From Bacilli bacterium (GTDB lineage Bacteria > Bacillota_I > Bacilli_A > RF39 > UBA660), in contig JAEENX010000025.1 in the NCBI GenBank assembly GCA_016283935.1, positions 1 through 64,000 of the forward strand: a DNA stretch of 64,000 nucleotides, read 5' to 3'. The notes beneath the pieces are model-generated. The model was not told the DNA's origin. It made no database searches and saw nothing but the letters and a program-made list of their open reading frames with translations. Position numbers and translations under genes: made by a program. Positions 9,364 through 62,506 of the stretch are shown in pieces; the stretch's first letter is position 1; every line of letters starts with the position of its first letter.

Positions 9364-9999
9364 ATGAATATAACTGAGTTAAAGTTAAATGATAAAGCAT
9401 TTGATGATATCATGCTTAAACACAGCTTGGCCTTAAAGATGTTAGAGACAGAATTAAAGATCATGATTCAAAACTATGAATATACAAATAATTGTAATCC
9501 AGTTGATCATGTTAAATCTCGTCTTAAATCTAAGGAAAGCATAATTAAAAAACTTGAAAGAAAAAAATATCCAATTACAACTGAAAATATTGTTAAACAT
9601 GTACATGATATTATAGGTATAAGAATAGTATGTTCTTTTATCAATGATGTATATGATATCATTGATTTAATTAAACAAAATACTAAATATACTATAAGAG
9701 AAGAAAAAGATTATATATCTAATCCTAAAAATACAGGATATATTTCATATCATATTATATTAAAGATGCCTATATTCTTAGATGGTGAAGAAGTTGAAAT
9801 TGAAGCAGAAGTTCAAGTAAGAACAATCGCAATGGATTTCTGGGCTTCATTAGACCATAAGATAGGTTATAAATTAGATGATATGCCTGATGAATTAAGA
9901 GAAGAAATGTATAACTGTTCTAAAGAAATCAAAGAATTGGATAAACAAATGTATAAGATAAAGAAAAAAGCTGATAAATATAAAAGAGAACATCAATAA
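9364..9999 (+). CDS. relQ: Small alarmone synthetase, RelQ type
   Basis: 211-residue single-domain (p)ppGpp synthetase; transfers pyrophosphate from ATP to GDP/GTP. Seen: VDHVKSRLKSKESIIKKL, DIIGIRIVC with the catalytic-side Asp, YISNPKNTGYISYH (guanine-binding G-loop, usually GYRSxH) and EVQVRTIAMDFWASLDHK with the conserved E-x-Q-x-R-T. There is no HD hydrolase, TGS or ACT domain, and a C-terminal basic helix matches the tetramer-forming tail of RelQ. SD GAAAGGGG. Monocistronic between its own promoter and terminator, embedded in glycan genes. Confidence 0.92.
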   Translation: MNITELKLNDKAFDDIMLKHSLALKMLETELKIMIQNYEYTNNCNPVDHVKSRLKSKESIIKKLERKKYPITTENIVKHVHDIIGIRIVCSFINDVYDIIDLIKQNTKYTIREEKDYISNPKNTGYISYHIILKMPIFLDGEEVEIEAEVQVRTIAMDFWASLDHKIGYKLDDMPDELREEMYNCSKEIKELDKQMYKIKKKADKYKREHQ

Positions 10000-10015
10000 A
10001 TGTTCTCTTTTTTTT
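9982..10015 (+). terminator. Intrinsic terminator of relQ
   Basis: AAAAGAGAACAT/ATGTTCTCTTTT with loop CAATAA and a T8 run. Confidence 0.85.
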
Positions 10016-10022
10016 GTAAAAT

Positions 10023-10056
10023 ATACTAAAATGTACTTTTTTGTACTTTTTAGTAT
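10023..10056. repeat. Inverted repeat / hairpin downstream of relQ
   Basis: Arms ATACTAAAA-t-GTAC and GTAC-t-TTTTAGTAT flank T6; 13 of 14 positions pair. Not followed by a clean T run, so it may be an operator-like palindrome or mRNA hairpin rather than a second terminator. Confidence 0.5.
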
Positions 10057-10071
10057 GTTATTTTACTTTTT

Positions 10072-10128
10072 GGACGCATTAACTAGATGCAAACCATAAT
10101 AAGGTAGCATCAGTTTATTAATGCTTCC
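10072..10128 (+). ncRNA. Candidate structured RNA element upstream of the 42-aa ORF
   Basis: A 57-nt extended hairpin can be drawn by hand: GGA-c-GCATTAA pairs with TTAATGC-t-TCC. After an internal loop (CTA / AGTTTA), GATGC pairs with GCATC, then ACC with GGT around ATAATAA. Eighteen pairs in very AT-rich DNA is notable. No T run follows, so it is not a terminator. It precedes a short membrane ORF by about 55 bases and could be a leader element. No known class was matched with confidence. Confidence 0.4.
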
Positions 10129-10183
10129 TCTAAAAAAATATATATTATTTGATTAATATATTCAATATGAGAGAGGGGATAAA

Positions 10184-10312
10184 ATGGAAGAAAATTATGT
10201 ATTAAAAGTGAGTGATATTAGTAGTGTTTCTAAGAATGGAGGAATTGATAATGGTTATTATTATATAGGCTGTTTATTTTTATTATTAATTTTTTATTTA
10301 TATATGTTATAA
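10184..10312 (+). CDS. 42-aa single-pass membrane peptide (not in ORF track)
   Basis: The ATG at 10184 follows a strong SD (GAGAGGGGAT, 3-nt spacing). It encodes 42 residues: a polar N-terminus starting MEENYVLKVSD, a Gly/Asn-rich turn, and a C-terminal hydrophobic stretch (about 25-42, YYYIGCLFLLLIFYLYML) long enough for one membrane helix, ending at TAA. The stop overlaps the extended -10 of rmlB. Function unknown. The strong SD and the structured region upstream favour a real gene over a chance ORF. Confidence 0.55.
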   Translation: MEENYVLKVSDISSVSKNGGIDNGYYYIGCLFLLLIFYLYML

Positions 10313-10313
10313 T
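10305..10313 (+). promoter_or_regulatory. Extended -10 promoter of rmlB
   Basis: TGTTATAAT overlapping the stop codon of the 42-aa ORF; rmlB ATG about 44 bases downstream. Confidence 0.55.
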
Positions 10314-10356
10314 TTAATTGATGGAATAACTTTGAGGGTTGAGGAAGAAGGTTTAT

Positions 10357-44220: not shown

Positions 44221-46140
44221 ATGGCAACAAAAAAGTATGATGCTGATTCAATTAAGATTTTAGAGGGTTTAGAAGCAGTACGTAAAAGACCTGGTATGTA
44301 TATTGGATCAACCGATAAAAAAGGATTACATCATTTAGCATGGGAAATAATTGATAATGGTATCGATGAAATTATCAATGGATATGGTAATCAAATTAAA
44401 ATTATATTAAATAAAGATAAATCTATAACAATAGCAGATAATGGACGTGGTGTACCAATTGGAAAACACTCATCAGGTAAATCTACTCCTGAAGTAGTAT
44501 ATACAATACTACATGCAGGTGGTAAATTCGAAGAAGGAAACTATAAAGTTTCAGGTGGATTACATGGTGTAGGTGCATCAGTAGTTAATGCATTATCTGA
44601 TTGGATGGATGTAATTATTTATACAGATGGTAAAATATCTGAAATTAAGTTTAAAGAAGGTGGAAAGGTAGATAAACCACTTACTCAAGTTGGTACATCT
44701 AAAAACACTGGTACAGTTGTTACTTTCATGCCTAATTATAATATATTTAAAAACTGTGAATTCTCTTATTCAACAATATGTGAAAGAATGCAAGAAAGTG
44801 CATTCCTTCTAGATAACATCACTATTGATGTTGAAGATAGAAGAGGAGAAGAAGTTAGAAAAGTAAGTTATCATTATGACAATGGTTTAAATTCATTTGT
44901 TGAATATTTAAATGAAGATAAAACTGCTTTAAATAAAATTGTTCCTATTCATGGAGAAAGCAAAGGAATTGGTATTGATATAGCATTACAATATACAGAT
45001 TCATACAATGAAACTATTCTTTCATTTGTTAATAACGTTAAAACGCCAGATGGTGGTTCTCATGAAGTTGGTTTTAAAACAGGTATTACTAAAATCTTCA
45101 ATGATTATGCTAAAGAACAAGGAATCTTAAAAGCAAAAGATTCTAACTTTGATGGATCAGATGTAAGAGAAGGTTTAACTGCAGTTATTAACTTAAAAGT
45201 TCCTGAAAAATTATTACAATTTGAAGGACAAACTAAAGGTAAGTTAGGTACTCCTGAAGCAAGACCTGCTACAGAACAAATTGTATATGATACATTAAAA
45301 TATTATTTAAATGAAAATAAAGCTGAAGCTACTGCTATATTAACAAAGATGGGTAATTCTAAATTTGCTAGAGAAGCAGCTAGAAAAGCTAGAGAAGAAG
45401 CAAGACTTGGAAAAACTAAGAAGAAAGAACAAGCTAGTCTTTCTGATAAGTTAACTCCACCTCAAGGACATAATTCAAAGATTAATGAATTATTTATAGT
45501 CGAAGGTACATCTGCCGGTGGTTCTGCTAAACAAGGTAGAGATAGAAAATTCCAAGGTGTACTTCCTTTAAGAGGTAAAGTATTAAATACAGAAAAAGCA
45601 TCATTAGCAGATGCATATAAGAATGAAGAATTAAATACATTAATCCATTGTATAGGTGGAGGTGTAGGTGCTGAATTTAATTGCAAAGATATTAACTATG
45701 ATAAAGTTATAATCATGACCGATGCCGATGATGATGGATGTCATATTCAATGTTTATTATTAACTTTCTTCTATAGATTTATGAGACCATTAATTGAAGA
45801 AGGACATTTATATATAGCAATGCCTCCTTTATATAAGGTTAATTTCCCAAATAGTAAGAAAGATAATTATTGTTATACTAATGAAGAACTTAAAGAAATT
45901 ACTGCTGGTAAGACAAGTTATACAGTACAAAGATACAAAGGTCTTGGTGAAATGAATCCAGAACCATTAAGAGTAACAACAATGTCTCCAGAAACTCGTA
46001 ATTTAATTAAGGTAAATATCAACGATGCTGCATTAGCAGAAAGAAGAGTATCTGTTCTAATGGGTGACTCAGTTGAACCTAGAAAAGAATGGATAAATGA
46101 AAATGTTGATTTCACATTAGAAGATGATTTTAAAAAGTAG
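44221..46140 (+). CDS. parE: DNA topoisomerase IV subunit B (ParE)
   Basis: 639 residues. GHKL ATPase: EIIDNGIDE, DNGRGVPIG, HAGGKFEEGNYKVSGGLHGVGAS. Then transducer and TOPRIM with VEGTSAGGSAKQGRDRKFQG, MTDADDDGCHIQ and PPLYKV. RDRKFQG, the KNEELNTLIHCIGGGVGA stretch and the overall spacing are ParE-like rather than GyrB-like. EGTSA replaces the usual EGDSA, although the essential Glu is kept. parC, which normally follows, is not in the window. Decatenates chromosomes together with ParC. Confidence 0.9.
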   Translation: MATKKYDADSIKILEGLEAVRKRPGMYIGSTDKKGLHHLAWEIIDNGIDEIINGYGNQIKIILNKDKSITIADNGRGVPIGKHSSGKSTPEVVYTILHAGGKFEEGNYKVSGGLHGVGASVVNALSDWMDVIIYTDGKISEIKFKEGGKVDKPLTQVGTSKNTGTVVTFMPNYNIFKNCEFSYSTICERMQESAFLLDNITIDVEDRRGEEVRKVSYHYDNGLNSFVEYLNEDKTALNKIVPIHGESKGIGIDIALQYTDSYNETILSFVNNVKTPDGGSHEVGFKTGITKIFNDYAKEQGILKAKDSNFDGSDVREGLTAVINLKVPEKLLQFEGQTKGKLGTPEARPATEQIVYDTLKYYLNENKAEATAILTKMGNSKFAREAARKAREEARLGKTKKKEQASLSDKLTPPQGHNSKINELFIVEGTSAGGSAKQGRDRKFQGVLPLRGKVLNTEKASLADAYKNEELNTLIHCIGGGVGAEFNCKDINYDKVIIMTDADDDGCHIQCLLLTFFYRFMRPLIEEGHLYIAMPPLYKVNFPNSKKDNYCYTNEELKEITAGKTSYTVQRYKGLGEMNPEPLRVTTMSPETRNLIKVNINDAALAERRVSVLMGDSVEPRKEWINENVDFTLEDDFKK

Positions 46141-62246: not shown

Positions 62247-62335
62247 AGAAAAAGGGAATACTTAACGGCGCAATGTTGAGTACTCACCTCATATTTGGTG
62301 ATGCACTTAATCCATTGGATTGAGTGCTTTTTCTT
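62247..62335 (+). ncRNA. Predicted type I antitoxin small RNA (~88 nt)
   Basis: Bounded by a consensus-like promoter and a strong intrinsic terminator, with no good ORF. Three hairpins can be drawn. First, GAATACTTAAC with GTTGAGTACTC around GGCGCAAT; second, CACC/GGTG; third, the terminator. It contains TCACCTC, complementary to GAGGTGA in the SD of the convergent 25-aa ORF, and its entire length is antisense to that mRNA's predicted 3' UTR. Its 5' 14 nt (AGGGAATACTTAAC) are identical to the predicted 5' end of that mRNA. Confidence 0.75.
62303..62335 (+). terminator. Intrinsic terminator of the antitoxin RNA
   Basis: GCACTTAATCC/GGATTGAGTGC (one G-U), loop ATT, then TTTTTCTTTT. Confidence 0.85.
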
Positions 62336-62346
62336 TTATAAAATCA

Positions 62347-62424
62347 TTATCTTATGTATAATAATAGTATAAGTAGAATGATGATAATGATTAATGCAAA
62401 GATTAGAAAATCTTTCTTGTTCAT
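62347..62424 (-). CDS. 25-aa hydrophobic membrane peptide, predicted SOS-induced type I toxin (not in ORF track)
   Basis: Minus-strand ATG at 62424, stop TAA at 62347-62349. The peptide begins MNKKDFLIF and is then almost entirely Ile/Leu, ending in YIR: a charged N-tip, one membrane helix and a basic end, the plan of TisB- and Fst-like toxins. The SD AAAGGAGGTGAT is fully complementary to the 16S 3' end and lies 3 nt before the ATG. The leader sequesters this SD in a perfect hairpin. Promoter with LexA box upstream, antisense RNA convergent. Toxicity is inferred from architecture; not similar enough to name a family. Confidence 0.75.
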   Translation of the reverse strand: MNKKDFLIFALIIIIILLILLLYIR

Positions 62425-62430
62425 ATCATC

Positions 62431-62446
62431 ACCTCCTTTCGGAGGT
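62431..62446 (-). promoter_or_regulatory. SD-sequestering hairpin in the toxin leader
   Basis: Minus strand ACCTCC-GAAA-GGAGGT: six GC-rich perfect pairs closed by a GAAA (GNRA) tetraloop, hiding the SD core. Confidence 0.85.
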
Positions 62447-62478
62447 AAGCACTCAACTGTTAAGTATTCCCTAATAAA

Positions 62479-62506
62479 ATTATATCATTTAGCGAACACA
62501 TGTTCA
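62479..62506 (-). promoter_or_regulatory. Toxin promoter, minus strand
   Basis: -10 TATAAT (62479-62484 complement) with a weak -35 TGAACA (62501-62506) at 16-bp spacing, lying inside the LexA box. Predicted start near 62472, at the beginning of the inverted repeat. Confidence 0.65.
62493..62506. promoter_or_regulatory. LexA (SOS) box
   Basis: CGAACACATGTTCA: matches the Bacillota LexA consensus CGAAC-N4-GTTCG at nine of ten defined positions, with the GAAC...GTTC core complete. It overlaps the -35 of the minus-strand toxin promoter and lies 23 bases before truB. Confidence 0.8.

Follow-up and report, generated by a model that had tools for sequence, protein, structure and literature searches.

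The locus studied here is the gap between relQ and rmlB in a 64,000-nucleotide stretch of DNA from a Bacilli bacterium (hereafter the window). The relQ stop codon lies at 9999, and the gap holds an AT-rich inverted repeat, a hairpin at 10072–10128 and an open reading frame (ORF) of 42 amino acids (Table 1). The ten congeners searched yielded no close relQ orthologue (best match 35% identity), and the bidirectional terminator of relQ is the likely end for any minus-strand RNA of the locus. The initial annotation had read this gap as a structured RNA with a regulated gene for a small membrane peptide, a description that proved apt for the family of elements reported below, with the ORF and the strand wrongly chosen.

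The inverted repeat was confirmed, with 17-nt arms at 10020–10036 and 10043–10059 that are 88% complementary. It has the form TACTAAAATGTAC-TTTTTT-GTACTTTTTAGTA and lies directly 3' of terminators at relQ, smpB and dnaN: further copies occur at G000:C10:61764 (smpB-csp; 87% over 61 nt) and G000:C10:109216 (dnaN-S4 spacer), and at the matching spots of genome G009 (C1:69333 and 113227). This motif, which recurs beside unrelated genes, is separate from the cassette described below. A TATACTTTWWTGTAC-like array was seen close to the end of contig C12.

The hairpin is a genuine fold (minimum free energy −19.5 kcal/mol, z = −3.95), equalled by 1 of 200 shuffled sequences. No Rfam family reached its gathering threshold in the window and none reached E ≤ 0.05 in five cassette loci, and we rejected a known RNA family or riboswitch on this ground. 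Three further copies of the element, at 77–86% identity, are present in the window's own genome, where the complete version is an intact cassette at C23:15283. On the peptide strand of this cassette, the promoter-like motif GTAAAATG-N9-CCGTGTATATATA is followed by a leader, a hairpin that locks GAGGTGAT, the peptide ORF MIKRTDIVIFLLIVIIILLIIFN and the terminator GCATCTAGC-AAAA-GCTAGATGC. On the opposite strand, a TTGATA-17-TATAAT promoter-like sequence precedes an RNA of ~75 nt that ends in the same terminator. This predicted small RNA (sRNA) is convergent with the peptide mRNA, exactly complementary to it across the shared terminator, and carries an anti-Shine-Dalgarno (anti-SD) segment.

With one cassette as BLAST query, the element was found in 10 of the 11 genomes of the genus; matches L014–L020 were discarded as AT-rich chance matches, as were the partial peptide matches L108–L110. 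A covariance model of the sRNA (R1), built with the window copy held out, gave 54 matches in the genus, ~50 of them clear (those in G002:C6 and G003:C173 are probably chance matches) and 39 preceded by a peptide ORF with an SD. A possible second cassette relic beside the smpB-csp inverted repeat, suspected by eye, scored at noise. We rejected a wider spread of the RNA, as the 193 family genomes yielded just weak 30–37-bit matches outside the genus, where terminator-like matches are expected, and likewise a phage or plasmid origin, since searches of viral contigs, phages and plasmids found nothing at the sensitivity used. Named matches come from genomes labelled Bacilli or uncultured bacterium from metagenomes, one of them from sheep rumen. 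Contig ends inside cassettes (the end of G000:C6, the start of C21) suggest that the repeats may break assembly, making the copy number a lower bound.

Intact cassettes span ~290 bp, and their peptides are 20–25 aa long and almost purely hydrophobic, with the consensus M-I-K-x-x-D-x-L-I-L-x-L-x-I-I-I-I-L-L-I-I-F. Such a peptide, judged from its sequence to form one membrane helix, is encoded in 39 cassettes; it matched no family searched and gave no Pfam hit above cut-off. Pooled pN/pS is 0.31 among pairs pre-selected at ≥60% identity, so the peptide changes less than synonymous sites do. The predicted antisense RNA gene has its own promoter-like sequence, a terminator and a covarying structure, with two-sided changes at 9 of 17 pairs. 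The leader hairpin, which folds in 28/28 leaders, has such changes at 5 of 10 pairs. Moreover, cognate leaders and sRNAs are more complementary than non-cognate ones between anti-SD and SD (permutation p 0.002), over the whole leader (permutation p 0.0003) and between the leader motif and the terminator arm (p < 0.001), all three tests being inflated in significance by related cassettes within genomes. Copies of the sRNA without a toxin gene recur (G000:C23:16221, G007:C1:161391, G001:C138, G001:C84 and G006:C4) and the G001:C7 cassette has an internal deletion; toxin-less copies in other genomes would be expected from a process that drops the peptide and retains the RNA. The search, seeded with a cassette and therefore liable to hide such genes, turned up no lone peptide gene without its sRNA.

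Table 1. Features of the relQ-rmlB gap and of the intact cassette near 62.4 kb (window coordinates; a point marks features given without a strand).
Feature	Position	Strand	Evidence
relQ intrinsic terminator, bidirectional	9982..10011	.	12 and 13 pairs on the two strands; 2 found, 0.1 expected
AT-rich inverted repeat, recurring spacer motif	10017..10066	.	motif recurs at other spacers
Remnant of peptide-mRNA leader, GGACGCATTAACTAGATG	10072..10089	+	17/18 identical to intact C23 leader
Truncated antisense RNA	10085..10133	-	R1 match, 33.8 bits, E=1.6e-4
Promoter-like sequence of minus-strand RNA, TTGAAT-17-TATATT	10137..10165	-	9/12 matches; equally frequent in shuffles
42-aa ATG ORF with SD	10184..10312	+	no conservation support
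Antisense RNA	62249..62336	+	R1 E=0.0074; ends GCACTTAATCC-ATT-GGATTGAGTGC-TTTTTC
Intact peptide gene MNKKDFLIFALIIIIILLILLLYIR	62347..62424	-	orthologue in G009:C27, MTKKDFLIFALIIIIILLILLLYIR
Leader hairpin TTACCTCC-GAAA-GGAGGTGAT, locks peptide-gene SD	62428..62448	-	
Peptide-gene promoter	62479..62505	-	LexA-like box GAACATGTGTTC (62505-62494) and TATAAT (62484-62479)

Within the gap, the covariance search that had been proposed for the hairpin found no Rfam family and one R1 match, which places the RNA on the minus strand. This copy keeps the 5' hairpin of the sRNA (GCATTAATAAACTGATGC, 18/18 identical to three other copies) and the anti-SD CTACCTT, and has lost the terminator hairpin. Upstream of it, the promoter-like sequence agrees in position with the sRNA promoters of intact copies. 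Gapped alignment to the two closest cassettes scored 77.7–85.5, where the best of 1000 shuffles reached 50.1, and matched both cassette ends around one large gap between the leader and the sRNA region; the peptide gene, the SD hairpin and the terminator are missing. The gap starts at CTAGATG, a motif that intact cassettes carry both in the leader and in the 3' arm of the terminator, and a deletion between these repeats is therefore the simplest history. The reported hairpin is thus the joined outer ends of a cassette that has lost its own 20–25 aa peptide gene, apparently by this deletion. With its 5' hairpin and promoter-like sequence kept, the window copy may be an orphan antisense RNA. A 9-bp pairing of its anti-SD with the SD on the intact C23 peptide mRNA is feasible, but 9% of shuffles pair as well.

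The second R1 match in the window belongs to an intact cassette at 62249–62505, between genes that we take, from their protein sequences, to be rbfA and truB. Its LexA-like box is the sole occurrence of GAACNNNNGTTC in the 64 kb (0.21 expected). The G009 orthologue keeps both the peptide and the box, there as GAACGCATGTTC, and among the cassettes a putative box of this kind overlapping the promoter was found in these two only. From its promoter, this cassette looks as though it may be switched on by DNA damage. A weak R1 match at 45589–45653 on the minus strand (E=0.063), with no peptide ORF with SD nearby, is probably an ordinary terminator.

Many other cassettes share a promoter motif, GTAAAATN10-CCGTGTATATATA in species-specific variants, with genes elsewhere in their genomes. 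The motif also precedes comEA-comEC (the ComEA having SLBB and HHH domains), a C39 peptidase ABC transporter, a divergent 17-aa peptide gene, surface-protein genes, and DUF1016, Bro-N, UvrD-like and MvaI-type genes. At ≤2 mismatches it has 9 sites in G000 and 10 in G009, and a reversed control has 0; loci include G000:C14:39877 and sites on C4, C8, C10 and C26, and others in G002:C6, G007 and G010:C16. In G002 comEA and a cassette are each preceded by a diverged version, which suggests that the motif evolves together with the cassette. These genes may form an alternative-sigma-like regulon, whose name, competence-type, is taken solely from comEA-comEC. Nothing supports the link to envelope stress suggested earlier for the gap; the promoters of the family point instead to this regulon and, for one copy, to LexA. 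As a separate observation, the 17-aa peptide gene (MWLRYIRLLYRIFGLFL, at G000:C5:8193-8313; counterpart MWFKYIKFLYRLIGLFF in G009:C16) and the divergent C39 transporter both have a competence-type promoter and are candidates for a signal peptide and its exporter.

The closest layout among known systems is that of the Fst type I toxin-antitoxin par of pAD1 (Enterococcus), with convergent promoters, a shared bidirectional terminator, a leader stem-loop that sequesters the SD, a second antisense contact at the start site, and a one-helix membrane peptide (PMC7472228). The cassettes resemble it in each of these respects, the second contact and the membrane helix being predicted in their case. They differ in their peptide, which at 20–25 aa has neither PXXXG nor a charged tail; in the segment shared by leader and sRNA 5' ends, mainly an inverted repeat rather than DNA direct repeats, with a supported SD/anti-SD contact; and in being many per genome, with competence-type or LexA-like promoters. 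Because PXXXG is absent from all 26 aligned peptides, we do not file the cassette as Fst. The tiny, almost purely hydrophobic peptide and the several chromosomal copies recall Ibs/Sib of Escherichia coli. Sib RNAs overlap the whole ibs ORF, whereas the cassette sRNA overlaps the terminator only, downstream of the stop. SOS-type control combined with a small RNA acting on a single-helix membrane peptide is known from tisB/istR-1 and dinQ/agrB of E. coli (PMC8145889, PMC3567139). The cassettes share this through the LexA-like box, a likeness limited to the 62.4 kb copy and its G009 orthologue. The RNA genes of those E. coli systems are not known to converge with the peptide genes on a common terminator, and their peptides show no sequence relationship to those of the cassettes. 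The type I modules of Clostridioides difficile (CD2517.1-RCd8 and others) have toxins of 34–59 aa with lysine-rich tails and are linked to CRISPR arrays and prophages (PMC6563280); the cassette, by contrast, is without a match among the viral contigs, phages and plasmids searched.

Taken together, we regard the gap as a deletion derivative of a genus-wide, multi-copy cassette resembling type I toxin-antitoxin systems, with a probability of about 0.78. The anatomy, repetition, homology, deletion and conserved structure of the cassettes are read from the sequence, and we infer in addition toxicity of the peptide, antisense repression, and a residual action of the orphan RNA in trans on intact copies. 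On this evidence the cassette would work like a type I system of par/Fst layout. In intact copies, the leader hairpin would sequester the SD of the mRNA for the 20–25 aa transmembrane peptide, and the convergent sRNA, pairing with the mRNA at the fully complementary terminator and at the SD, would keep translation off until induction of the mRNA from a stress or competence-type promoter tips the balance. In the window copy, recombination of the leader CTAGATG with CTAGATGC in the terminator arm would have removed the peptide gene, the SD hairpin and the terminator, so that the inverted repeat reported as the hairpin remains, together with a promoter-like sequence and the 5' half of the antisense RNA.

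The initial annotation had instead made the hairpin a cis-regulatory leader of the plus-strand 42-aa membrane-peptide gene. That ORF is present as described, with an SD (GAGAGGGG) upstream, a C-terminal hydrophobic stretch and a stop overlapping the TATAAT ahead of rmlB. Its SD is strong, ~1% of shuffles of the stretch yield an ORF of such length with an SD core, and the full fold would allow CCTCT at 10127–10131 to pair with the SD AGAGAGG. However, the ORF lies outside the cassette element, and the sequence upstream of it overlaps the putative promoter of the minus-strand RNA. It has no relative in the 11 genus genomes and no credible one in 186 family genomes (the family-level matches, the best with E 8e-4 in 1/186 genomes, fall in unrelated frames). 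Of hairpin and peptide, the hairpin alone proved to be conserved: it recurs through the genus, and its homologues are parts of the cassette, with the RNA on the opposite strand and a different ORF, making a leader function for the 42-aa gene very improbable. The ORF also contains SKNGG, for which a double-glycine leader was considered.

Two other readings concern the family and the fate of the window copy. The cassettes might encode a useful small membrane protein or a secreted competence-type signal whose dose the RNA tunes, as the promoter that many of them share with comEA-comEC, the C39 transporter and the DUF1016, Bro-N, UvrD-like and MvaI-type genes would suggest. We consider this unlikely: many copies per genome, RNA kept while the peptide is lost, a purely hydrophobic peptide of 20–25 aa and doubly locked translation are all typical of type I toxins, and the LexA-like box on one copy suits a damage-induced toxin better than a signal. 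It is an even question, compatible with the toxin-antitoxin-like reading of the family, whether the window copy is a dead relic, transcribed on neither strand, with the hairpin as a deletion scar. Its terminator is lost, its promoter score is not above that of shuffles, and its alignment is shorter than that of any intact copy; against this stand a 5' hairpin identical to those of three other copies and a TTGAAT-17-TATATT sequence in the right place.

Their shortness and low complexity let type I toxins slip through annotation, and dozens of copies in 11 genomes here provide comparative evidence for each regulatory helix. The family also gives evidence of repeated loss of the peptide with the RNA kept, and of wiring to a competence-type promoter and a LexA-like box. 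More tentatively, and with the odds against it, the cassettes may form a new type I toxin-antitoxin family confined to one genus of uncultured gut Bacilli, with up to ~9 copies per genome, wired to a competence-type regulon, one core copy being under LexA control, and with toxin-less copies serving as orphan antitoxin RNAs that hold intact ones in check in trans. If true, this would connect peptide toxins with DNA uptake and with responses to damage in an uncultured lineage, and would make orphan antitoxin RNAs testable.
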